Positions 2,111 through 60,622 of a stretch of DNA of 64,000 nt are shown one piece after another. The notes under the pieces were generated by a model, which had not been told where the DNA came from, searched no databases, and saw only the letters and a list, made by a program, of their open reading frames with translations. Positions within the stretch are counted from its first letter, which is position 1; each line of letters starts with the position of its first letter. Source of the stretch: Rhizophlyctis rosea (lineage: Eukaryota; Chytridiomycota; Chytridiomycetes; Rhizophlyctidales; Rhizophlyctidaceae); contig JADGJC010000235.1 in the NCBI GenBank assembly GCA_027596075.1, positions 1-64,000 of the forward strand. The letters are read 5' to 3'. The position numbers were made by a program, and so were the translations under genes.

Positions 2111-2908
2111 TCACACCGAAGGATCTTCAAAAGCTTGCTGCGTTTTCGGAGGTGCTGCTACTGTGGACGGGTCTCGGCCAACGGCGTTGAGGCCTTCACC
2201 CATGGTTTTGTTGAACATCTGTAACTTCATGACTTTGAGACGATCCAGGGTGCTACCCTGCTGCTCGATGGCTACAATATGTTTGAGGATGATAGAACGG
2301 TCGTTCCGCTGGAGCTTTGCCAGGCTGTCAAGGTGATGGAAATTATCTGAGCGGAATTCAGCCTGTTTTTTCTGAAAATCATTCCACCACCCGGAGGAGC
2401 CCGCCCCACTTTGAAGATTGTCGTTGTTGTCTTCGTGCTCGCTGGATGGTTGCGCTTTGACTTCAGGTTCCCTCGTATCATCCTCAGGAACAGTGAAACT
2501 ACTTGTTTGTTGTTGTTCTGAGTTGGTAGGAGGTTGGGGGTCCATGGCCGACGCCGCCGCGGCAGGGCGACCGTCGTTACGGCGAGTATCCGGGGTAGAT
2601 GAACCCTGTTGGGTGTCGTCCTTTGTCACTGGAGGTTTATTTTGATGCCAAGCTCCTGTACCTGTGATAGGAGGCTCAGGGTTGTTTTCAGTGGTGTCGC
2701 CGGCCAGCGGCGACGCTTCCTTGGTGGTGACTGGCGTCCCGAGCACTCTCTTTTTCCATCCCTCCTTGATTTCTTTGAACATCTCCGCACTGAACGTTCC
2801 CGGTGACGGGTAGAGTCGCCAAGTGTCGGCTGACTCTCCAGTAGTCTCTGCAGATAACTCCCTGGGTGTGGTCGGAGGACTAGAGGGACGTCTGTCGTTG
2901 CCGGCCAT
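2111..2908 (-). CDS. Hypothetical protein, disordered with helical C-terminus
   Basis: A single frame of 265 residues starts at an ATG. About the first 170 residues are rich in Pro, Ser, Thr, Glu and Gln and look disordered. The last 95 (from about WWNDFQKKQAEF) look helical and coiled-coil-like, with heptad-like spacing around LAKLQRNDRSIILKHI. I recognise no domain. It sits among transposon fragments, so a Gag-like or accessory element protein is possible, but there is no zinc knuckle. It ends directly beside the inverted-repeat element. Confidence 0.4.
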   Translation of the reverse strand: MAGNDRRPSSPPTTPRELSAETTGESADTWRLYPSPGTFSAEMFKEIKEGWKKRVLGTPVTTKEASPLAGDTTENNPEPPITGTGAWHQNKPPVTKDDTQQGSSTPDTRRNDGRPAAAASAMDPQPPTNSEQQQTSSFTVPEDDTREPEVKAQPSSEHEDNNDNLQSGAGSSGWWNDFQKKQAEFRSDNFHHLDSLAKLQRNDRSIILKHIVAIEQQGSTLDRLKVMKLQMFNKTMGEGLNAVGRDPSTVAAPPKTQQAFEDPSV

Positions 2909-3525
2909 ATTGGATACTTAAGCGGTTGCAAGGAAAACGATAGTTTGAAATAGGCTGAACCAGGGCTCATAACCTGTTGATAGCGCAGGTCTGTTAAGGG
3001 ATTCACTAGCTCAACCAACTCAATAGGACTCCTAATAGCCATACGGTACTATGAGTATATGTTGCAACGACGCGTTTCATTTGCCTGGATGAAGATAGTT
3101 TAGCCGGAGCTGCCCCACTGGCTAGCAATGTATTTCCTGACCCTGGTCAAATATCGCCGCATGATTGTATTTAATTTACTGCGTCCAATGCACAGCATTG
3201 GACTTGGGATAGAGACGTTTGGACTTTGTACTATAACCCGATCGCTAACGAGACTCCCACTTGTCTCGTCATCCGAATGAATATATAGAAGTCCACCTCT
3301 AGCCTCTGGCTCTTTGGTTAGTTCTCACTTAGTTTCAAACCGTTTCTGACTTAGTGTTCGGCCTTCGCTCACGCAACATAGGCCGTTCCATATGTGTAAA
3401 CAATTGTATTGTAAACTGTATCTAGATCCGCTCAAAGCCTGATCATGAGGAAGAAAATCCTGATGGTTGCGTGGCTTGGGCGATCGCTGATCTGATATCT
3501 GATCTATCCCAGCTCTCCTAGCTAT
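2909..3525. other. Gene-free stretch with promoter-like sequence
   Basis: No convincing coding region. A TATA-like 'gaatatatag' lies near 3284-3290 and is followed by a T-rich, C-rich run toward the Gypsy fragment. It resembles an LTR or promoter segment. I found no second copy near 6.1-6.3 kb that would prove an LTR pair. Confidence 0.35.
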
Positions 3526-4479
3526 ATGCCGCAGTACTCTTTGTCACTACTGACATATACTCTCGCCCGCATGATCATTGATACGATGGAGAGAGAGGGA
3601 CGGAGTGTGGAACAATGCGCAGAACAGTGGCACGACATTTGGAGGGAGGAGGTCTATGCGTACAACGTTCACGTGTCTCGAGTGACTGTGTTGAGTCCTT
3701 ATCAAATGGTCTTTGGTCAAGAGACATTGTTACCCGTAGATGAAATCACCTCGGACATCGCGAAGAAGTTGAGGGAACGCCGAGTGGAAAATATGCCGAT
3801 TCTGAGCTATTTGCGGGAGTATGCGGCTGAGAACAGAAGGAAGCAACACGAATCCGCGGCAAGGAGGGAAGAAGAACGAGGAGTTTCTGAGCCGAGAAAG
3901 TATCAACCTGGCAATAACGTATGGATCTACGATGCGCGAGCAGCCCATACGTTCCCATTGCATCACAACATACTTCTGCGCTGGGAGGGACCAGTAGTTA
4001 CTAGGGATATGATACGGAAGGGGGCATACACTGTGGAAGATCTGGATGGCAGGTTGGTATTTGAGGGGAGGACACATAATCATGTGTGGTTGAAGCCTTA
4101 CCGGGAGGGAGTCAAGTGGAATGACATCGGACTGGGGCCAGGGCTACCAAGGAGAAAGGATGACGAGGAAGATGATAAGGACGCAAAACCTGTTGAGGAG
4201 GAGTTAGAGGAGATGGGAGCTAGCTTTGTGCAGATGTTGGAGAATGGGAACAGAATGGAGGAGGAGTCGGGTCAAGAGATGGGAGGGAGTCTGGTTGATA
4301 AAGAGGAGGGAAAAGGGAAGGGAGGTGATATGAGGTTAAGAGGTGGGTCTGGGCATACTGAGATCAGTAGTGTAGCTTTTGGAGATGGGGTAGCTTTAGA
4401 GGTAGAGGTGTCGGGCGTCAAGGCGAGAAAGAGAGGAGACAGGGTGGTGATGCGAGGAGGAAGGTTAAGAGGTGGGTAA
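3526..4479 (+). pseudogene. Ty3/Gypsy-type Pol C-terminal fragment (end of integrase)
   Basis: The frame (317 residues) begins inside an integrase. The segment with AYNVHVSRVTVLSPYQMVFG matches the end of the catalytic core, where family members read roughly YN, then (T)GxSPFxxxxG. It is followed by a GPY/F-like C-terminal domain: LRWEGPVVTRDMI, then GAYTVEDLDG, then VWLKPYRE. These domains bind DNA or chromatin during integration. Protease, reverse transcriptase, RNase H and most of the integrase core are absent, and stops lie just upstream in frame, so the copy is 5'-truncated. From about residue 210 the protein turns into a Glu/Gly-rich tail. The first ATG is only the first Met of the remaining frame. 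Confidence 0.75.
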
Positions 4480-4484
4480 GGGCG

Positions 4485-5807
4485 ATGTGTGATAAAGAGG
4501 AGGAAAAAAAAGGTGTGGACTGGGTGGGAGGTAAAGAGACGGGAATTGGGCTTAAGGTATATAGTGTTGAGGAAGATGAGGAGGAAGTGAATCATAGCGA
4601 GTTGAGCGATGTGGAGCTCACTTTGGCGATTGATGCGTTGATTTTGCGGAGGGAAAGGGAATGGAGACGAGAATGGAGAGACGAGAGCGGAGACTTTGGC
4701 TGGGAAAGGATGGAATTGGGTGGAATGCATGGTTCGAGCGAGAATGGGACGGGCGTCGCGCAATCATGTAATCAGGAAGAATCGGGGAATCATGGGACGT
4801 GGAGTTCAGGAAAGTTGAAGGGGGTGCCGGAAAATGAAGCTAGAGGATCCGAAGGTTACGTGATCAAAGCAAGGGTCGGAGATTCAGGAGATGCAGGAAC
4901 GACAGGTGATGGGAATCAAGGGACGGAACGGGATGGGAGACTTGACGGATTGGGCTCGAAGTCTGTGGCTCTTGCATCTGGAGTACCCATAGTTCCCTCC
5001 CACAAATAACTTGAAACTTTGGGCTTCGGAGTAGGAGACACCAGCAGAGACGGCGGAAATGGAGATCATATCGACGGAAGACGGCCGGGACACTTTGAGG
5101 TACCATCACAAACAGAACCTTTGTTTGATACCAAATTACGACGTAAGTCCAGGAACCGTGATAACAGACACACTTTGAGTTCAGAATTGAAGGGAAGTTT
5201 GGGACATGCGGAGGGCTACACGGGGTTGGGAGAAAAGGATACTCATGCAGGGCATCATGCGGATTCAAGGGAATCGGGTTGGCGAACTTTGAGTATTACG
5301 GTGGACAGGACATACGAAGGGGAACCTACGGCGTCAATGGAGGATCATACGGAGTTGGAATTGAGCGGGAATATTTTGAGAATCGGGAAATTGGTTGGAT
5401 TGGGATTGAGGAGTCTGGTGGAACGGGAAGGGAAGGAAAAAAACGGTTTGGTTGAGAGGGTCGGACCTGGGACGCAAGGAGGTTTGAATTTGGGGCGTGG
5501 GGACTTAGCGAATTTGGAGGTAGCCGGGAGGGCGAAAATGGAAGAAGGGCGCGTGGGGGGTTTGAACACCGGGTTGGGTGGGAATCATATGGGCAGTGCT
5601 TTGGGACTTAGGGAAATTTTGGGCGAGGAGCAGGTGATGAGGAGACAGCCGCAAGACTCGATTAGAGTTGATAACCTATGGAACTCACACCAACGGCGCG
5701 CTGAGCCTTTGCTCTCAGAAAGGTTCAATACATTGTTGAAGCAGGCGACAGATTTTTCGAGAACGACCTTCGTAATCCGCAAAGATTTCTGGGGGACGCA
5801 GTACTGA
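4485..5807 (+). pseudogene. Gly/Glu-rich frames downstream of the Gypsy fragment
   Basis: Two same-strand open stretches (4485-5009 and 5019-5807) follow within a few bases of the Gypsy frame and of each other, in different frames. They continue its bias: Gly, Glu and Arg rich, with repeats such as GGLN and RREREWR. They read best as a long low-complexity tail of the same polyprotein, broken by frameshifts. The last 45 residues (from about DNLWNSHQRR) are less biased and look like a folded end. No known domain is visible. Confidence 0.4.
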
Positions 5808-32700: not shown

Positions 32701-35700
32701 TCAATCATACTCACTCTAGTCTCCCTCCTCGCCATTTTTCTAAGGAACTCCGATTCTCTTTTACATATTCCGCCACACCTTCCGCCTCTACTCCATCCAG
32801 ATGCAAATAACCATTCACGCACTCTTGAAACCACAATGCGGCCATCAAATCACCCCGGATATTTGCCAACTGATTCATCCAATGTTGCCGCTGCCGGAAG
32901 AAGGACATCATGCTTCGCAGCTGTAGGGTGATATCGAATGGCATTGAAGGGGAAGACTTTCGTCCCATCTGCAGCAAGTGATTGAAAAGGAGTAGCGCTT
33001 GCTGTACACCCTAATTGCCAAGATCCATCAGTTTGAACACCATAGGTTTTCAGAATCACTGAGCACGGAAAAATTTATGTCCTACCTCCACGACCAGAAG
33101 CCCCTCGATAAAATCGAATTCAGTCAATAAAGTTTTCAGGTCTTTCCATCGCTGAGTCGCAACCAGGAGAGTTGGCGCCTCGCGGATCTTGCGCACATTG
33201 TACACCGGGGGATCCAAATTGGATCCCGCAAGATCAGTATCTTGCGGCGGGAGGTGCTTGTGTAGGCCGGACAGTGGCATACTTAGTCCGCCACGCAATT
33301 GGATAGTGTCTTGCTCTGAACGTTCACCTAGTGATGGGGGTGATCCTTCATCACACAAACCGCCCCCCTGGGAAGTGAAATAGGATGCGAGGGAGTTTTT
33401 TATTGCCTTCGTTTCTCGATCGGACAAATAACGCCTCTTGGCAGCATCCTCGAAAGAGCGATGTTTGAATCGAATAATAGGCTGCCCGCCGTAAGCCCCT
33501 TGCGAATGGCGTATCAATATCTCCCATTCCACAATCAATGATTTGAGCAAGTCTGCAAATACAACAGGCGGCAATCGGGCCATAACTGATGGAGGCCCGT
33601 TTCCGACCGATTTAGTCAAAGGTTTAGGGCTTACTTGTGAGAAGACTTCCGCCAGCACTGAGCGGTCCGTGCTCAGCAGATCAAAGAGCTCATGTTCCGT
33701 GATCCCATCCCGAAGACAGCACACATATTGGAACGTTTGGCAAAGGAGGCGATATCCATGGCGTTCTTCTAGCGACTTGAGCAAATTATCCAACAATCCC
33801 TCAGCATCAATCGAAATCTTTTCGAGTTTTACCCTGCTCAACGCCTCCGCTTTGACCACTGCCTCGAATCCACCATCAGCTTCCTCCTCCCCATGAGCCG
33901 AGCACCATCTTGCAACCCTACTCGTGATCAGTTTCCAGCTGATTGGATTCACTCTCTCATCTGATGTGAAAATGCTTTCTAATATCACTCTCCTCTGTGA
34001 TCGATGCACTTTACGCTCCACCGCATTCAGCCAGCTGCGCAGCGCAACGCTCGCATCCCGTAAGGTAAATTCTTCTGAACGAATAATGCCATGCTGGCTG
34101 ACTATTGATGACGGGATTGTAAATGGAACTTGAGCCTCCAACAGGGACTTATAAACGCTTTTGATACGATTGACTAATATGTCGACAGGAGCTGCGGCAC
34201 CAGTTTCCGTTTGAGACAGCGTGCAGATGATACAGACTCCGGTTGGTATGTCCTCAACAGGTAACCATCCGAGCTTTCTGGAATTATCAAAGTCGTCCAG
34301 TTTATCCAATCCCAACAGAACAATGACGATAGGACGCTGGGCAGCGGCGCTCTCCAGGGTGGAACGAAAGAAGGCACAAAGGGATGAATGGTCGGTGGGA
34401 ATTGCCGTGGGATTCTCGAATGGGTTGAAGATTGCCGGAGTTGGATGAGAGGCCTTATCTGATGACTGACTGCATGCCAGCAGAATTTGTTGGCATATGG
34501 AAGTCATCAAGGCGGCTGGGGTCGAAGATTGCGGAGATGTGCCAATGAAGCGAATGACGACAGTTGGTTTGATGTTCGCAGTGGACGGATGCATGTGCGC
34601 TCCTGTGTTGTTTGGCGATGGGTCCATGGTCTGACGTGCTTCCTCAATGCTATTGCCTTCCATTTCCCACTCTGCTTCAATGATTTTCCGCACAGCCCAA
34701 CACACCAACGTTGATTTCCCAGTTCCAGGTCGTCCGCATACCAGCAGTGGCGGGGTGCCATCCTCTGCTCTCCAAGCGTTGCTCATAAGGCCAGAGACTT
34801 GCTCCACCGTACCTCGGTACCCAATGAAAGGCACATACCCAGTATTGCCCATGCCAAGTGATTCTTGTCTTCCCTTCCGACCTACTACTTTGTTGTGGTA
34901 TAATCTGATGTGATGCAATATCTCCAACCGCATCTTTTCTTCTGCGGTACATGGAATCCACGATGGTAGTGTGGATGCAGACCCTCCCCGCGCCTGTTCA
35001 GCCGAATTTTCTAAGACGGTCATGATACGACTGGTGGTAGCATCCTGTACTTGTGTTAAGTATGCCTGGTGCGTTGGGTACAGGCGCGGTTGGATACCGG
35101 ACGGCTGCCAGCGAATCTGCGAGTTTTGGAGAGGAAGGGCTCTCTTAACAAGGTTGCTAGCATGAAACACATGTGTAGTAATACAGTTATCTATTGCTTA
35201 CCTCAGTTTGAACAAATCGATCATCTCCCCAACTAGCCAGCAATCTCGTTTCTATTTTGGCTACATCCTCCTCAGCTTTCGAATTTACCATAAACGCTTC
35301 CTCTGGGGAATCAGCAACCGCTTCGGTCACTGCTGGTTCTGTGACTTTCTCTTTGCGCACCCAATCAAGGTACTTCCCCTCCGGTGCGGACTTATGCAAA
35401 GGCTTAAATTCCGTTATGACTCTTTTGATGAGAACTCCTGTTCCGCTGCCGCCTCCCACCCCATCTTTGTTTTCGCCAACTGTGCCGGCATAGGGGGATA
35501 ATTCTTCATTTTCCAAGATAGAGTCGATTTTGATTTCAAATGCACTTTTCAGGAACAGCCCATCCAATAGATCGAGCATATCATCTCCCGGTCCCTCATC
35601 GGTGTCGGCCATCAAGTGTTGCGTTGCCAATGCAAACGTCTGCAGCGCAATGGATGACAACTGTCTGTGGTGGCTTCAGTATTAAATGCAATTGAAGGGA

Positions 35701-51400: not shown

Positions 51401-54191
51401 CCTATACCTGGCCAAACCCGACGACGACCCACCGTCCCCCTTACCCCTCACCCTCTCCACATCCCATCCAGCCAACGTCACATGCGCTCTCACAACTCCC
51501 GCTTTCGGCACCGGATCCTCAACCTCCCCCTCATTCCCAACCGACACCGACACAAATTGATACCGATCCTCCGACATGCACTGCACGCTGGCGATTACCG
51601 CATCTCGTTGACTGATTGGGTGTGAACAATAGGGTAAATAAAGAATGAAATGACAATCGGGACACACCATTCAAGGAAGATGAGGATCCAACAGACCTAG
51701 TAGGCCAAACAGCTTTGAAATGCACATGCGAAAGAACAGTAATAGGACTAAGCTGTTCCAAAATCTCCGCACTCTCAAACTGAACGTCCCCTATCATTGC
51801 AAAAGAAATAGAGGGAAGCTATTAATCAACAATCCTCTTCATCATCCAAGATCTCCCCTGCGCAACACAATATAACCCTAACCCCCCCGATGCAACTCCC
51901 CACCACAAAAAATACTCACACCCCCTCCTAGTCCCAACATTCTCCACAACCGCCTTCAAATCCCATAACCCCCTCACACTACTCTCCTGAAACACCCCAA
52001 CACCCTTATAAACCCCCGTCGGGTGCCCCGCAACCTCCTTCCCATACATCGCAACATCCCTCTGACTCCCCACAAACGTAAACTCGTCCGGATTTGCCAA
52101 CAAATAGTTAAACGTCTCAAAAGCGCGGGCGATATCGCCGGAGTAGCGGCTCGGGTAGTTGGGGAGGTGTATGTTGTTGGATGTCAGGGTTGTGGGTGGG
52201 GGTGGGAATCTGGTGGGGTGTATTTTGCTTGGTTTTTAGTGGTGCGGTTTTGGTATGTGGAGAATTGCGGCATACCCACCTCGGCTTTACATTCCGCTTC
52301 TTTGGTTGCGGCGATGCTGGAATACTTTTCACTGATGTTGACGCCGCCTTATCAGCATCATTCACCGCATCAGCATGGAAACCCAAAAGTTCCTTCGGCG
52401 CCTCCTTCCGATTCAGCAGAACAACACCCCCACGACCGTCCAACATCTCCACGCGCAACAACCGATTGACTGCCTTCAAACCGGAACAAGAAACGATCAA
52501 CCCTCCTTCACCATCCCTCTCAAATCCAATGTCCGAATCATTCGGCGACACTGACGAATCTTCATGCATAATAGAATAATCAACATTAATCCCCGTCCGC
52601 TCCACCCACGCGCCATGATCAATACGAATCTCCAAAACAGCCTTTGACCCATCCGTATCGCCGCCGGCTGCACCATCCTCCTCCTCCTCCGTCGTCCACT
52701 CAATCTGCCACGACTTCTCCGCTCCAAATTCGCCCAGGACTTTGACTGCCGGTGCACAATCCTGCAAATATGGAGCAAACCCACGTGCGGAGAGATGAGA
52801 CGTTGCGGCGGTGATGGATTGCGACAAGGCGTCGAATATAAAGTCCTCTTCATGTTGGGTTTGTCCTAGTATGAAGCATGTGGCGTTTAATCCGTCTCCT
52901 TGTGCCAGGCGTTCCACTGCCCATGCTTGCAGGTTTAGAGGAGAGTCGTCGGTGCTTTCTGATGCGCAAGTGGATAGAGAGACATAGGTCGAGGATGTGG
53001 CGGCGGTTTGGGTGACGATTGTGAAGGCCCGTTGTCTGTAACGATTGTAAAATAAGTACAAGCTCCATCATCACGCCGTTCAACCACACCAACATTCATC
53101 GCATCACCCCACCAACGCCAAATATGACCACTGCTGCCCTTCTGGCAACATCTAAACGCGCAAGCGAAGCAGTAAACTCACGTTGAATAGAGGCGAGAGC
53201 GAACACGCCGCACAGACGTTCGGGCGTCCAACCGCTCCAACAAGGTTACTTCTTCGAATAGCGCGTTCCCTGCTGGTGGTGACAATGAGAAGCACATGAG
53301 TCGTTGGCAGGATGGGAGCGGCTGAGAGTTGAAGCAGCTGCCACCGCACACATCCACAGCATCCCCAACAGCCCATCACATTCATTCCCCACTGCCCAGC
53401 ACACACATTCCACAGCATTGGCGACCGCCCACCACACCCAACCCCCAACAGCCCACCACACACATCCCACAGCACCCGCAACAGCCCACCACATTCAACC
53501 CCCACCTGCCCACCACACACATCCCACAGCATTCCGCAACAGCCCACCACATTCAACCCCCACCTGCCTACCACATGCATGCCACAGTATCCGCAACAGC
53601 CCACCACATCCAAACCCCACACATTCAACTCCCAACTGCCCACCCCACACATCCCACGGCATCGGCAACACACCACATTCAAGCTCCAACCGCCAACCAG
53701 GGATCCCACCCCTCCGCCAACCATACCACTAGTGACCCAGTGCCAAGTGCCTTGCCTACACATCCCAGCCCCACCATGCGCACCATACATACATTGTCTA
53801 TCGACGCCCGGAGCGTCCAAGATAGCACCCAAATTACGTGGGCGAAGCACGTCTGAGGCAGCAGAAGAGTCCCCATTGGATTCGGCGATGATTCCGGTCA
53901 ATTTTAAAGCATTGCCTCTTTTCCATCCGCGGAATGTGTGAGACGCAGAACCAGACGCAGACGCAGAAGGTGACGACGAGGCCCTTTCCACGACCAGTTG
54001 CCAGTCAGTAGCCGAACTGAGGTTTCGATATACATCTCTTGCACGCGACAAGCGTTCTGCATATTTGCCGTCACTATCCAAGTTCCATCAAAAATATGGT
54101 GAATGATATTATGGTTTAGATAGAAGCTCGTGTTGCATACAGGCAGGAAAAAAGGGGGCCCTCGCAGCCATGCGCACCTCGTGTCTGCCAT
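48489..54191 (-). CDS. Protein with three tandem START-like lipid-binding domains
   Basis: Eleven exons give an uninterrupted 1,405 residues: 54191-54178, 54073-53793, 53269-53182, 53035-52280, 52149-51920, 51790-51697, 51611-51383, 51290-50240, 50156-50063, 49959-49754, 49663-48489. Three START-like units are visible. Unit 1 (~1-240) has ERLSRARDVYRNLSSATDWQ and LFEEVTLLERLDART. Unit 2 (~380-640) has MYGKEVAGHPTGVYKGVGVF, HFKAVWPT then SQRDAV, GVVRAHVTLAGWDVE and GGWLPSAVLKMVSVQTP. Unit 3 (~895-1090) has RAWDETMESGKQLEYCGDG, RGYFPM then SRRDIVAVE, GKMRANLVLAGW and DLGGSIPLTVQGVLL. Gly- and Ser-rich linkers separate them. START folds bind sterols or phospholipids in a deep pocket; here a multi-lipid transfer or sensor role is inference. 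No membrane segment seen. Confidence 0.8.
53340..53700. repeat. Intronic minisatellite, about 57-bp unit
   Basis: Inside the second intron of the START gene (53270-53792), a C/A-rich unit containing 'cccaccacattcaaccccca' and 'acacatcccacag' repeats five to six times. Copies in the middle (about 53484-53600) are closest to identical; those at the edges are truncated or diverged. It keeps several frames open on both strands by chance. Confidence 0.8.
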
Positions 54192-54835
54192 CTTGCCGCG
54201 AAGTATATGGCCGTTGTCAGCAACCAGCTATGAAGGAGTGTATGTATTTACCGTCCAAGGAGGGGTGATACCGGTATGTGACCCTCTTAGAAACCTGACC
54301 GTGGGCCATGCAATCGACACACTGAATAGGCAAGGCAGTTGAGTGAAAGTGCGTGTCGTCCGGTAATCCTATCCTGTAGTAGGCTGTCACCTCACAAACC
54401 ACCCTGTGCCTACCAGGCCCTACCTACCTACCTACCGTGTAGTGAGATATATGCAATATGGGGGGTGTGGTCCACGTACGGGGTTTCAGTGTTGTGAAGC
54501 CCAAAGGAAGGATTACATCTAATTTATGCCAGTATGGAGAGGACATCATGTGTGGCCCCACATGGTGATCCCTGGTTGGGCCCTGGGGAGTCGGGACTCG
54601 TGAAGGGCGTCATCATCCCAGATTGCCTGGGCCCGTGACACATGTTACTTAAGTATGATCGGCGCTCTTCCACACTCACTGCTGGCTGCTCCTTCTCCTG
54701 TTCTCATCAGTAGTAGTAGGAGTGTGGCTATTATTAGGCACTGACATATATAGGAGGAGGAGGAGGAGGAGGAGGAGTGACTCACACTACTGACACTGAG
54801 ACACTCGCTTGACACTCTCATACAATACATACATA
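54192..54835. other. Spacer between START gene start and Fanzor element
   Basis: Minus-strand promoter and leader of the START gene. Contains a run of five TACC-like units (about 54420-54437) and a (GGA)8 run at 54752-54777. No supported gene. Confidence 0.5.
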
Positions 54836-54849
54836 TATAGTACAAGGGT

Positions 54850-54917: not shown

Positions 54918-57179
54918 ATGGTCAAACGTAAGAGACCTCCCGACCCTCAATGTCGGAAAATTACAGATTTTTTCACAACACAGTCTCCTACCACAGACCA
55001 TGTTTCTGTTTGCAGTGCCAATAGGGAAACACCAATCTCGCCCACAGAGGTCGTCCTTATCGGTGAAAGCAACCAATCCACCCTCGGTTTACCCACAAAT
55101 ACATCATCGTCTACACCCTCACCAACGACACCACCACAACAACCAATGACAAAGAACTTCAAACGTCAACGAACTTCTCTTCCACCTCGAAGGTCATCCA
55201 ACAAAACTCGGCTTAAGACGTATCTTCGAACTGATTTTCCCGAGTCCCGAGTGCTTGTAGACCGCCTTTTCGCCTACATTCGAAAACCACACCGCCTTGC
55301 CCTGCATACCACCGAATTTCTTAAATTTTGGTTCCTCGCTGCCACCGACTACCCAATACTGACGGAAGAACATGTAGAAGGTGCACTCTACATGATCAAC
55401 AAAGGCTCTGCTTGGAGTCCCAAATCTGAAAGCAAACAGGCCGTAAAGTTAGAGCTCGAACCTTTTCTACAACCTTATCGGTCGATTCGAAAAATTGAAT
55501 CCGTCAATCTTGAATACGATCAACAGCCCATCAACTACCTCGCGAAGAGCATCTTCTCCAACATCAAAACGAACGTTCAGGAACATTACATGCAGATGTT
55601 ACTCCGCTTCATCAACCTCCGTTTGGGTAAGTATGTTTCTCTGACAGATGTAAATTTTCGTGAATTTCGACTCACAAACAGCAATCATCAAGGTGTGAAG
55701 GAAAAGAAGAAAGAACTATCAGGAGAGGGACGGAAGGAAGAACTGCAACAGTTCTTCGCTCGCGTGAGGTGGTTGAAACGTTTTCTATTGATGGAAGCGG
55801 AGCCAACCAACGCCGAATGGACTGACTTGACCCCTCATGATCGAAATATTTTTGACGAGGTCCTCGACATCCTCCCAAAACTACCGTCCAAAGAACCGCT
55901 CGCATACCTAATTGTCGCCGATCCCATCTACTTCCTCCCGTCCTACTGCCGCCTCTCTCGTCGATACGAATACCATGGCTTTCCTCAATTCAGCGCTCTT
56001 CCTCTACGAAGGACCCTTGTTCAGTCCCACGTCCAGATCGACACGAACATCCTGTACAACCACATTCTCTGTATCACGAGAGGGGTCGCGGAGGGTCTGG
56101 AAGACATGAAGGAAGAGCTATGGGGGCGGGTGTTTCATTTGAAGAAGAAAGCATTTCAACCCCGGGCGGGAATGAGGTTCGATGGGACGATATACACCGA
56201 TGGACACTCCTTGACGGTCGGTATCAGCCACCCGGACGCCAAGAGGGGTCAGAAGGCGGGGAGAAAGTCCAAGGCCACCCTTCAGGCGGAGGTTCGTGAG
56301 CAGTACGTTGAGAACAACTTGGATCGACTCCAACTGGCAGAGAATATCGTGGCGGGTGATCCGAATAAGCGAGACTTGCTTTACTTCCAGGACACTTTGA
56401 ATGGGACCACATTCCGTTATACATTAAACCAGAGGGCGGTGGAGACGGGAAGCAGGACGTTCAGGAAGAAGAGGGAAAGGTTGAAGGCGTTCAGCGGGGT
56501 GGAAAAGTTGGAATCGAACATTCCCACGCACAAAACGATGGACCTTCAGGGGTTTTGTCAGTACCTAGCAACATTGGCGGCAACAGAGGCGGAGAGACAA
56601 AGCTTTTACGACCGCGACATCCACCGCAGGATGAGGTTCAACTCTTACCGCAACACCCAACGAACGGAGGCGAAGATCATTGCCAACATGAAGGAAAAGT
56701 ACGGGAAGAACTTTGTGGTCGTCCTCGGTGATTGGAGTGATGCGGGGAGGACGGCAAAGTTCCAGACGTCGAGCAAAACAAAGGGATGGAGGACGTTGTT
56801 TCGACGGAACAGCATCCCTTGTTTCCTGATTGACGAGTTTCGAACGTCGTCTTTTTGCCCGATGTGCGAGAATAAGGTGGAAGGGAAGTTGTGGAAAAGG
56901 CCGAGTTCGAGGCCTTGGAGGAGAAAAGAGGGTCACCAGGAGGATGTCCATGGATTGTTGGGTAAGCAATATTCTATTTGAGTTGTATTTCAATAAGGAT
57001 TTTGATCTGTTTTTCGAACGTTTGCAGGTTGCACCAACCCTAACTGTTTCAAACAACCCGGTTGGACACACCGTTTCTGGAACCGAGACTTGCTGAGCAC
57101 CTGCAACATGATCAAGATTGTCCGCTCCTTATTGCTGGGATGTGGGCGTCCTTCTTTGTTTTGCAGAGGTTCAAATTAG
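54918..57179 (+). CDS. fz1: Fanzor1 RNA-guided DNA endonuclease (eukaryotic TnpB homologue)
   Basis: Two exons (54918-56961 and 57028-57179) encode 731 residues; the second is needed to complete the nuclease. The N-terminus is basic and nuclear-localising (MVKRKRPPDP) and runs into a disordered Ser/Thr/Pro region to ~90. Residues ~90-470 form the recognition part. The RuvC-like core follows: GDPNKRDLLYF (Asp481), VVLGDWSDAG (Asp605), LIDEFRTSSFCPMC (Glu640, Cys646/649), HGLLGCTNPNC (Cys683/688, completed across the intron) and FWNRDLLSTCNM (Asp702). The two Cys pairs make the TnpB-type zinc finger inside RuvC, and the NRD segment is RuvC-III. By family, it binds a guide RNA made from the element's 3' end and cuts matching DNA beside a short motif. 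All nuclease residues and the zinc finger are intact, so it could be active. The upstream in-frame TTG was not used. Confidence 0.93.
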
Positions 57180-57315
57180 GTTTCAGTTATATTTTAGCTT
57201 TTTCCAGGATTGTTGACGCGATCCAAGACGCGTGCTGGGTGGTTCCAGCCGTGTTGGTTTATCCGGTTTGATCTGTACTATAGACAGTACTTATTGGCCA
57301 AATACTATATAGTAC
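57180..57315 (+). ncRNA. Predicted Fanzor guide RNA (omega RNA / fRNA) scaffold
   Basis: Directly after the Fanzor stop codon. GGAT (57207-57210) can pair with ATCC (57261-57264), enclosing two adjacent 5-bp hairpins: ACGCG/CGCGT (57216-57233) and GCTGG/CCAGC (57234-57249). An AT-rich segment with GTACTATA and TATAGTAC follows to the putative element end. Known omega RNAs lie at this place, overlap the nuclease 3' region and continue into flanking DNA as the guide. The 5' end may lie inside the coding region. Boundaries are inferred. Confidence 0.55.
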
Positions 57316-57364
57316 ACTGCAACTCAAAGACACGTGACACTCACAACAACCAACCCCCATCCCT

Positions 57365-57473: not shown

Positions 57474-60400
57474 ATGACAAACACGTCGGACACTCCCGCC
57501 TCGATATCCTCACGGAGAGCGGGCGCTTACTCTTTCTTATCGAGAACAAACCCTGCGACTACTTCCTCAATGCCGCCACCACCAGGTCCCTCATCGGCGT
57601 CCCGTGCAGCCGCACTGGACTCGTCTTCCCTGTTGCTGGGTCAGGGTTCATCTTCAATACTCGCTGCACAGGACGCCACGGGTGGTAGTGCTAGTGCACT
57701 GGGTTCCTATCAGACACCGCAATATCTGCTGCCGGACTCGCGCGGAGGTGGTGCTGGGACTGGTGACGAACCCTTGCGTATCACTCCTGCAAAGGCAAGA
57801 CCGCCCGATTATCTCATGGATACTCCAATCGGAGGTGAGTAATGTTCGCATGCCGAAGGCATATATTGGAGGAGGCGCCAGCATGGATTGGGGTGGGTGA
57901 GCGCAAGCGAACAGTTCGCGCGAAGCGCGTGGGTGGGGGTGGGGGTGAGTTGGAAGGTCCGCAGGATGGCCATGCCAAAGGCATGAAATGGAGAAGGTGC
58001 CAGCATGGACTGGGGTGGTAGTGAGCTGTAGCGAATGGATTGCGAGCAGAGCTCGCGCAAGTGCGCCCAGCGCACATCCTATCTTGGTGTAAAGACTCAT
58101 TGTGAGTGAGCCTTAGCGAATGGTTCGCCGTGCGCAAAGGTGCACAATTTACCGGCGGCATCAAGTTTACTCATGGAGTATAGTCACAAGCTGACATATT
58201 CGTTGCAAATTCACCATGTAGAAGAGTACAGTCGCTCCTTGCCGTCATTCGATGAACAGCACATTCCCACGCCATTGTTTGCGGGCCTCGAACCAGATCT
58301 ATTCGCGGCCCCGCAAGCATCTTTTCCACCAGTCTCACACAATACCCACACCAACCTCGACGACTCTACAACCGATATGTTCCTTGATCTCCCTTCATTC
58401 GATATACCCCTAGCAGATGCATCACCAGAGAGGGGCTATACGTCTCGGCGAAAATCGCTAGTTCTGCCCACCCATTGGAATGCGAGGGACAAATGTCAAT
58501 ACGTAGAATTGTCAAATTTGGGTTTGCGCGTGAGCTACACAGGTATGTGTTATTCATTTTGAATTTGAGGTATGAGGGACTGGGGCAAGCAATTGACATC
58601 TGTGAAGGGACGGGAAAATCAGACTCAGACGCGGCAGCAGTACGAGCAAACAACGCAATTCCGCCGCAATGCGGCATCTACTACTATGAAATTTCGGTGA
58701 TCAGCAAAGGAAGAGACGGGTATGCATTTCATCAGTATCTGATGATCAGACAGCATTTGCTTACATCCATTGGCATAGATATATTGGGGTCGGATTCAGT
58801 ACAAAGAGCGTGGCGTTGGGTCGTCTACCAGGTAAGCCATGTGCTCGTCACATCCATCTTTAATGCACTGCACATGCTGAACTATCTCATGCGCAGGTTG
58901 GGAGGAAGCATCCTGGGGTTATCATGGCGATGACGGGCATTCCTTCAGCTGCTCAGGAACTGGCAAAACATATGGTCCGACGTACAGGTGTATATCATGG
59001 ACTTTCGCATGTGTTTTACTCAATCATACTGACCCATCGGAATATCAAGCACCGGTGACGTCATTGGTTGCATAATCAACTTCTTGAATATGACTGCTTC
59101 ATTCACACGCAATGGTGTTTACCTCGGTGGGTTCATGTTGCCGGCTTCCCGTCAGTTTGCCTTGTGTCGTCAGAAATGGACGTTGCTAACGCCAATCACA
59201 AATAGGAATTGCATTCAAGGACCTCAATAAGTCGATTCGGGGACCGGAATCTGCTCTATACCCCTCCGTAGGATTGAGAACACCTGGCGAGATTGTCGAG
59301 GCGAACTTTGGCGCTCAGAAGTTTGTTTTTGATATCGATCAATATGTGAAGGTGTGGGTCGCTTTTCCCGTTCAAAAATGTTGACATTATGTAACTAACC
59401 CATTGCATCTAACCCTGCAGGAAGAGAAATCCAACCTCTGGCACTCCATCAACGCCTCGCCACTTCCACCTCCCTCGGGCAGCAGCAGCGCAATCCCCTT
59501 CACCATTCCCGGCACAAAACTACTCGACAAGCTCTCCTCCGCCCCTACACCTCGCACACAATCAATCAACATCAACGACCTCGTCCTAAATTACCTGATC
59601 CACAGCGGGTTCTCGGACACGGCCGAAAGTTTCGCACGAGACGCCTTCCCGCAGGACCGCGCAACGACAGGAGAGTCAGGAACAACGGATGGCGGCGGCA
59701 AGGGTGGTAGCGGGTCAGAGGACGTTGTGATGGGCGAGGCGGACATCAGTGGCGGGAATCTCGCAACGTCCTTTGATGTACACGAAATCCGACGGAGGAA
59801 AGAGATTCGTGCGTGTGTCTTGGATGGGGACATGGACCGGGCCATGGGGATGGTTCGGGAGTCTTACCCGGGGGTGTTGGAAGCGAACCGGCATGTGGAG
59901 TTTATGTTGCGGTGCCGGAAGTTTGTTGAGATGATTGTGCGGATTGTGCCGCGGGAGGGTGGTGGTGGGGAAGGAAGAGGGAAGGGAAAGGCGGTTGCGG
60001 TGGCGGAGGCGATGGAAGTGGAGAATGGGCATGTGGATGGACGGCTTATGGAGTTGTTGGCGGAGGTCGTTGCGTTTGGACAGGGGATTCAGAAGGAGTT
60101 TCGGGATGTTGAGAATGGGAGGGTGAGGAGTGCTTTGACTGTGAGTGTTTTGTGTGTGGTTTTATTCATGGGCATGGGGAGGAGCTTGGTGTGTTGGAAT
60201 ACGACAGTTCTATTGTTCTTACATACATTGCAATTGAACAGGAGATCTACTCGCTACTCGCATATCCAGAGCCATGGTCCAGTCCCATGTCCTACCTGCT
60301 CAACCCGTCCGGCCGGCATCAAGTCGCGGAAGCATTGAATGGCGCCATTTTGGGTAAGTGTCTTCTTCCAGTTTTTGCAACTTCAGATTCTACCACTGTA

Positions 60401-60622
60401 CGGTTCGGCGGACTTGACATTCCACGCCCGCTCCCAATGTTCTTAACCCCTCTTACTAACATTTTCTATCTCCTCCCCGACATCACAGAACACACCTCCC
60501 GCACCCGCCACTCCGCCCTCGAACGCATATACCGCCAATCCGTCGTCGTGAACCGCGCGTTGGTGTCCGAGGGGTCGGGTGCGGCCGGGTTGGTCAATTT
60601 GGAAAAGTCTTGGAAGTGTTAG
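57474..60622 (+). CDS. GID1: RanBPM/Gid1 (Vid30) homologue, GID/CTLH ubiquitin ligase scaffold
   Basis: Ten exons give 708 residues: 57474-57834, 58222-58542, 58608-58719, 58779-58831, 58897-58987, 59050-59126, 59206-59351, 59421-60140, 60242-60353, 60489-60622. The N-terminal ~175 residues are disordered. The SPRY domain follows: [84 protein letters not shown] and [13 protein letters not shown] LisH motif ([20 protein letters not shown]) and CTLH ([14 protein letters not shown], then [14 protein letters not shown]) come next, and the protein ends in a CRA region. Order and length match RanBP9/10 and yeast Gid1. The complex marks gluconeogenic enzymes and other substrates for the proteasome. 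The first intron is long (387 bases) and hairpin-rich. Confidence 0.92.
57850..58135. repeat. Hairpin-rich repeat units within intron 1 of GID1
   Basis: Two diverged direct copies about 121 bases apart. Each has a small hairpin (ATGCC-gaa-GGCAT at 57850-57862; CATGCC-aaa-GGCATG at 57971-57985), then 'ggngccagcatgga' and 'tggggtgg', then a GC palindrome (TTCGCGCGAA at 57915-57924; GCGAGC-aga-GCTCGC at 58042-58056). A third partial copy ('tgagccttagcgaatggttcgcc') is near 58107-58129. Confidence 0.7.

Follow-up and report, generated by a model that had tools for sequence, protein, structure and literature searches.

The window, by which we mean the whole stretch of 64,000 nucleotides of Rhizophlyctis rosea DNA analysed here, carries on its forward strand, at 54918-57179, an apparently intact gene for a Fanzor1 protein, and just beyond its stop codon lies a short conserved element that is probably the scaffold of the corresponding omega-RNA. 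An earlier note on this DNA had described the gene as encoding a 731-residue protein in two exons. Joining 54918-56961 to 57028-57179 does yield an open frame of 731 residues with the motifs quoted there, but the first of these two exons very probably holds a second intron. The candidate, 55627-55692, is a 66-nt stretch of the form GTAAGT...CAAG that was overlooked by eye because its length is a multiple of three and it contains no stop. At the same codon, a paralogue on another contig of the assembly (C89) has a 56-nt intron, GTAAGT...ACAG, across which in-frame read-through is impossible, and removal of 55627-55692 raises the score of the match to SpuFz1, the Fanzor1 protein of Spizellomyces punctatus, from 657.1 to 683.2 bits (a gain of 26 bits). 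On the C89 intron and the gain in score we rejected the 731-residue, two-exon model as the main product, and the gene is likely to consist of three exons encoding 709 amino acids. The other intron, 56962-57027, stands as the earlier note had drawn it: it is 66 nt long (GTAAGC...GCAG), its removal completes the zinc finger, and it is matched in position by a 66-nt GT...AG intron of the C89 paralogue.

Alignments to the C89 copy and to SpuFz1 assign the N-terminal extension, the start of the WED domain and the first part of REC to exon 1 (54918-55626), the remainder of REC and WED, the RuvC residues D459, N461 and E618 and the first zinc cysteines (CPMC) to exon 2 (55693-56961), and the second zinc pair (CTNPNC), the WNRD motif with the catalytic D680 and the stop codon to exon 3 (57028-57179), all on the forward strand. 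In the alignment the start codons of the window and C89 copies lie one residue apart, and the 709 codons of the window gene are free of stops and frameshifts. The acceptor CAAG of the first intron is less usual than CAG or TAG, and because of this atypical site a retained-intron form, in which 55627-55692 is kept as a 22-residue insert, is possible. A TGA inside the C89 copy was considered as a lesion and rejected, since the stop sits within the 56-nt intron. Introns and nuclear-localisation signals have reportedly been described in one paper on Fanzors, and we do not claim the introns or N-terminal extensions as new.

Downstream of the gene, open reading frames on the forward strand from 57474 to 60622 possibly belong to a single gene for a LisH-CTLH protein, which we take to be RanBPM/Gid1-like. 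Pfam places LisH and CTLH within 59403-60338 and a weak, below cut-off CTLH match in 60152-60622, with no match in 57474-57842 or 58140-58562. Elsewhere in the window there are a tandem array of about five copies of a ~57-base unit at 53341-53620 and, on the reverse strand at 33056-35170, an ORF for a STAND-type NTPase (AAA_16 with an NWD1-like winged helix). STAND-type NTPases are sometimes linked to fungal self-recognition.

The assignment to the Fanzor1 family, made in the earlier note from motifs in the translation, agrees with a sequence search of all PDB chains, in which the only matches at E<=1 were SpuFz1 (8gkh and six more entries; E 4.2e-204, with 329 of 617 aligned residues identical to the spliced protein) and PpFz1 (E 9.6e-48); no non-Fanzor chain was among them. 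The further suggestion that this might be the known chytrid Fanzor1 or a close relative needs to be narrowed, in that the protein is not SpuFz1 itself but a homologue 53% identical to it. By this comparison SpuFz1 is the closest solved relative of the window protein, and chance as the source of the Fanzor1 reading is excluded by the strength of the match (E 4e-204) and by a dN/dS of ~0.1 between the paralogues. The 731-residue protein matched no Pfam family above cut-off, and two pattern scans of IMG/VR viral contigs returned no relative.

The motif common to Fanzor and TnpB proteins has been given as D-X(125,275)-[TS][TS]-X-X-[C4 zinc finger]-X(5,50)-RD (PMC3627910). In the 709-residue model it is represented by D459, T621-S622, the cysteines C625, C628, C661 and C666, and R679-D680, with 161 residues between D459 and T621 and 12 between C666 and R679. 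For residue-by-residue comparison with the SpuFz1 structure we used chain numbers minus 394, by which all 48 listed residues fall on the letters named in PMC10432273. The four RuvC metal-binding residues reported there for SpuFz1 (D383, N385, E541 and D606) are all kept in the window protein, as D459, N461, E618 and D680, and all four are kept in the C89 copy. Contacts to nucleic acid are kept in part: four of six for the target-adjacent motif (TAM; R96 is replaced by K169 and Y345 by R421), four of seven for the guide (H21 is replaced by R92, T22 by S93 and R481 by T558), four of six for the DNA of the heteroduplex, 12 of 17 for the 5' end and SL1 of the RNA, and four of eight for its linker and stem 2. 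The corresponding numbers of kept residues in the C89 copy are five, three, four, 12 and four. With its complete zinc finger and all four active-site residues the window Fanzor1 looks intact, and the same chemistry as in SpuFz1 would be expected, with a target motif that is similar though perhaps not identical; the changes Y345/R421, H21/R92, R96/K169 and R481/T558 are the reason that the motif or the efficiency may differ.

Across the assembly to which the window belongs (44.1 Mb in 634 contigs), a search found this Fanzor1 family represented by the window copy, one other full-length copy (on C89) and a fragment of 120 residues on a third contig (C21:87000-94500), which has 99 of its 120 residues identical to the window protein and ends abruptly. 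The window and C89 proteins are identical at 524 of 690 aligned residues, and by two methods the genes differ by dN 0.15-0.16 and dS 1.42-1.64. The paralogues are thus old, at a dS of 1.4-1.6 that is near synonymous saturation, and a dN/dS of ~0.1 indicates that both have long been maintained under purifying selection. The stretch before NKTRLK has evolved faster (dN 0.43-0.47 over 77 codons, vs 0.12-0.13 over the 613 codons of the core). When SpuFz1 serves as outgroup, the window copy has 22 changes of its own and the C89 copy 34 (p=0.14), while at 70 positions all three proteins differ; the 22 against 34 unique changes give no sign of decay of the window copy. Selection measured between two old copies is blind to the last few substitutions, and the first intron has an atypical CAAG acceptor, both of which would suit a gene that died recently and is a relic still intact in look. 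Such a relic is unlikely: the 709 codons are free of stops and frameshifts, all four active-site residues are present, the zinc finger is complete, and the window lineage has no excess of changes. Purifying selection on the protein and conservation of the RNA-like element downstream of it indicate that both functioned while the two copies diverged; that the nuclease is active at present, as the earlier note had concluded, would follow by extrapolation. The purifying selection could also be a trace of past transposition and not of use by the host.

More distant sequences of this kind also occur in the assembly. Matches to PF07282 (Cas12f1-like TNB) above cut-off lie at eight further places (L017-L024), around which the longest open frames look short or interrupted, introns being left aside. 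A distant Fanzor1-like sequence in C391:3500-11000 (L025), at 3857-5293 on the forward strand, shows GVDPGR, DGFRTSITC and WNRD, spread over two neighbouring open segments in a single frame. An IS607-like arrangement is present in C21:103500-109500 (L027), at 2191-3972 on the forward strand, on the same contig as the Fanzor1 fragment: a serine-resolvase ORF (PF00239, E 6e-16, and a weak MerR match below cut-off) overlaps a TnpB/Fanzor2-like ORF pair (HTH_OrfB_IS605, E 1e-5; PF07282, E 2e-16), for which the label Fanzor2 is provisional, and an ORF for a C5 DNA methylase lies nearby on the opposite strand.

The proposed omega-RNA scaffold occupies 57233-57307 of the forward strand, consists of two stems and a linker, and is recognised from its conservation, its consensus fold and its spacing from the gene. 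The spacer between stop codon and element is 53 nt in both the window and C89, and the elements themselves, 75 nt in the window and 77 nt in C89, are identical in 66 of 77 alignment columns. Of the fourfold-degenerate sites in the two genes, only 98 of 222 are identical, a difference from the element with a binomial p of 5e-14 when sites are treated as independent. The spacer is conserved as well (37 of 58 columns identical; none of 1000 shuffles as good), which makes this contrast slightly weaker and suggests that the 75-nt scaffold may be only part of the conserved unit. By blastn, homology between the two loci runs to 57311, 132 nt past the stop, and the sequences diverge within a few bases after 57307, as expected of guides. 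The consensus fold has 19 pairs, none of them non-standard in either copy; one pair has changed on both sides in a compensatory way (U-A to C-G) and two have changed on one side. Since these two sequences also served to predict the fold, we place weight only on the three changed pairs.

A shared 3' UTR, or a transposon end with some function other than that of an omega-RNA, is an improbable account of the element. It would accommodate the partly conserved spacer, the overlap of transposon right ends and omega-RNAs in SPu-1 elements, and single-sequence scaffold folds that barely beat their shuffles (z -1.06, 33 of 200 as good; z -1.74, 10 of 200), but it leaves aside that the element has the position of the SpuFz1 omega-RNA and the same 75-nt, two-stem plan, that its pairing is preserved through one compensatory and two one-sided changes, and that the protein conserves 12 of the 17 residues listed as contacts of the RNA's 5' end and SL1. 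We read 57233-57307 as a putative and probable omega-RNA scaffold, located 3' of the gene and followed by its proposed guide. The window had no Rfam match at gathering score, and two genome searches with the element found the window and C89 places only, with no guide-only ghost copies; repeat counts in the genome search, where very common words were skipped, are lower bounds. The native guide is proposed to be ~15 nt long, at 57308-57322 of the forward strand, with a boundary uncertain by ~4 nt; this placement draws on the divergence from C89 and on the guide length of SpuFz1 (~15 nt; PMC10432273). A search of the genome for CATA followed by the guide, with up to two mismatches, gave no site besides the locus itself for the first choice of boundary (three for the reversed control) and two other sites for the second (one for the control), so that there is no convincing target for the native guide beside CATA.

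Recognisable ends were sought at both loci. Inverted repeats of at least 12 nt at element scale were absent from the window locus and from C89, as were terminal inverted repeats of 30-33 bp like those of SPu-1. The best upstream partner of the right end, 54823-54844, contains CATATATAGTAC, with CATATATAGTA at 54832-54842, and lies close to the gene. Its score of 19 was equalled in 44 of 500 shuffles, and in 35 and 50 of 500 (for two upstream lengths) when a 35-nt right end was used; lengthening the right end to 95 nt makes the match unremarkable (138 and 243 of 500). The C89 right end has no upstream partner above chance (217 of 500 shuffles as good), and between the two upstream regions there is no long shared match, the best local match being 13 nt. 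Terminal inverted repeats were not accepted on these results, the window match being at best borderline and C89 having none. The genome holds two full copies and one fragment with no ghost found, which differs from the multi-copy pattern with omega-RNA-only ghosts of SPu-1 elements, and 20 chosen ORFs of the window matched no Pfam transposase family at E<=0.01.

That the gene belongs to a still-mobile element of the SPu-1 type, whose nuclease maintains the transposon by cutting the empty sister site and whose copies are simply few, has a small but real chance of being correct. The SPu-1 elements of S. punctatus combine terminal inverted repeats with multiple copies (PMC10432273, PMC3627910), two loci with different flanks and the C21 fragment of 120 residues bespeak past movement or duplication, the proposed right end finishes in TA, which would fit a TA target-site duplication, and the upstream match at 54823-54844 is borderline when the right end is taken short (35-50 of 500 shuffles as good). 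Weighing against continued mobility are the absence of element-scale inverted repeats of at least 12 nt from both loci, the ordinary upstream match with the 95-nt right end and its lack of a C89 counterpart, the absence of ghost copies from the genome searches and the near saturation of the paralogues at synonymous sites. The simplest reading is that mobility was lost and function kept; it is possible as well that two elements arrived independently and that each later lost its ends.

The window protein is also distinguished by its N-terminus. SpuFz1 (638 aa) has ~7 residues ahead of the aligned part, and ~78 N-terminal residues of the window protein are without counterpart in it. Residues 3-19 (54924-54974, forward strand), KRKRPPDPQCRKITDFF, combine a basic, NLS-like cluster with the PIP-box-like KITDFF; the counterpart in C89 is KRKRPPDTQSHKITDYF, with KITDYF, so that the extension opens in both paralogues with a basic cluster plus KITD[FY]F (residues 14-19 in the window, 13-18 in C89), ahead of a divergent linker. 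The pattern [ILMV]TD[FY][FY] appeared in 0.005% of 200,000 shuffles of the 93 window residues before NKTRLK and in 0.001% for the 79 residues of C89, and the looser [ILMV]xx[FY][FY] in 0.9% and 0.2%; these figures are descriptive, the motif having been chosen after it was seen and the copies being related. KITD[FY]F resembles TD-type PCNA-binding peptides such as those of p21 and Cdt1. The canonical pattern, Qxx[ILMV]xx[FY][FY], is absent from both proteins, the glutamine being missing from its place in CRKITDFF and SHKITDYF; the published consensus is Qxx[I/L/M]xxF[F/Y] (PMC5371812). No PIP-like motif was found at a plausible N-terminus in three further loci (L025-L027) with provisional N-termini, the one match in L025 being chance-like and beside a stop. 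The first 36 residues of the C89 protein had no match in the PDB, and none of the papers searched mentioned both Fanzor and PCNA as whole words. A SUMO-binding-like stretch (EVVLIGES) was set aside as unsupported, since it lies mostly within a segment that C89 lacks. The N-terminal block may act in nuclear import and PCNA binding. PIP boxes have been described in pogo and in LINE-1 ORF2p, and the IS608 transposase TnpA is reported to bind the beta-clamp (PMC5371812); docking on a clamp by a relative of TnpB would fit this trend. A more ambitious and rather unlikely proposal is that this Fanzor1 has left transposon life and is kept by the host as a fixed nuclease that carries its own guide and uses an N-terminal PCNA-binding motif to dock on DNA under replication; the literature matches listed included no paper on domesticated Fanzors. 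If true, it would tie cutting by an RNA-guided enzyme to the replication fork, as a eukaryotic parallel to sliding-clamp binding by IS608 TnpA.

Collectively, we consider it highly probable (about 0.86) that the locus encodes an RNA-guided DNA endonuclease of the SpuFz1 lineage of Fanzor1 with its own omega-RNA directly downstream. What the present analysis contributes to this reading is the homology, the intact active site and zinc finger, the intron model, the conserved element at fixed spacing and the purifying selection; RNA binding, guide use, target motif and cleavage are extended to it from SpuFz1. On this view the 75-nt, two-stem scaffold would be what the protein binds, pairing of the next ~15 nt would pick out a target flanked by a short motif (CATA or one much like it), and cutting of the DNA would take place at the single RuvC site. 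The gene probably descends from an SPu-1-like mobile element and is now one member of an old pair of copies that lack recognisable ends, on which account it is most likely at present an immobile nuclease kept by selection, perhaps with a function in trans for the host or for other elements.

What Fanzors do biologically has been described as unknown, and deleting the several copies present in a host like S. punctatus as calling for better genetics (PMC10432273). Two full SpuFz1-like copies, both under purifying selection and with one predicted guide each, would make deletion experiments more feasible in R. rosea; other, distant Fanzor/TnpB-like sequences also occur in the assembly. With few copies, no clear ends, introns and a conserved protein and RNA element, the locus is a good candidate for asking what Fanzors do. 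A solved structure of 53% identity (SpuFz1) is available, and the clamp-like N-terminal motif offers a specific and cheap hypothesis on where a Fanzor1 might act. New in this analysis are the 75-nt element, the old paralogues with dN/dS ~0.1, the lack of convincing inverted repeats and of ghosts in the searches made, and the N-terminal extension with its PIP-like motif.

Among known systems, SpuFz1 of SPu-1 (PDB 8gkh; PMC10432273, PMC3627910) is nearest, with 53% identity over 617 aligned residues, an identical active-site set, a zinc finger and an omega-RNA matched here by a 75-nt, two-stem element just past the stop and then variable sequence. SPu-1 is described as having a single ORF, 33-bp terminal inverted repeats and putative TA duplications (PMC3627910), whereas the window gene has two probable introns and no convincing repeats; for S. 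punctatus 42 Fanzor loci (19 of full length), 134 ghost loci and 30-nt inverted repeats are reported (PMC10432273), in contrast to the two full copies and a fragment, with ghosts not found, in the present assembly. PpFz1 of Parasitella parasitica (PDB 9cf0; E 9.6e-48) shares the family and the C-terminal motif but is far more distant and has a RuvC insertion of ~100 aa (FRI) that binds cyclophilin (PMC11423790); its alignment to the 731-residue protein is interrupted between two matched stretches, where PpFz1 has ~110 extra residues. GtFz1 of Guillardia theta, which was compared by description and had no chain among the PDB matches, is unlike the window gene in its 150-nt omega-RNA and TTAA motif, as reported, and like it in that its Fanzor1 locus is reported without inverted repeats (PMC10432273). 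The pogo transposase and LINE-1 ORF2p (PMC5371812), although their PIP boxes differ from the glutamine-less window motif, resemble the window Fanzor1 in being transposon-related proteins that carry a motif of this kind.
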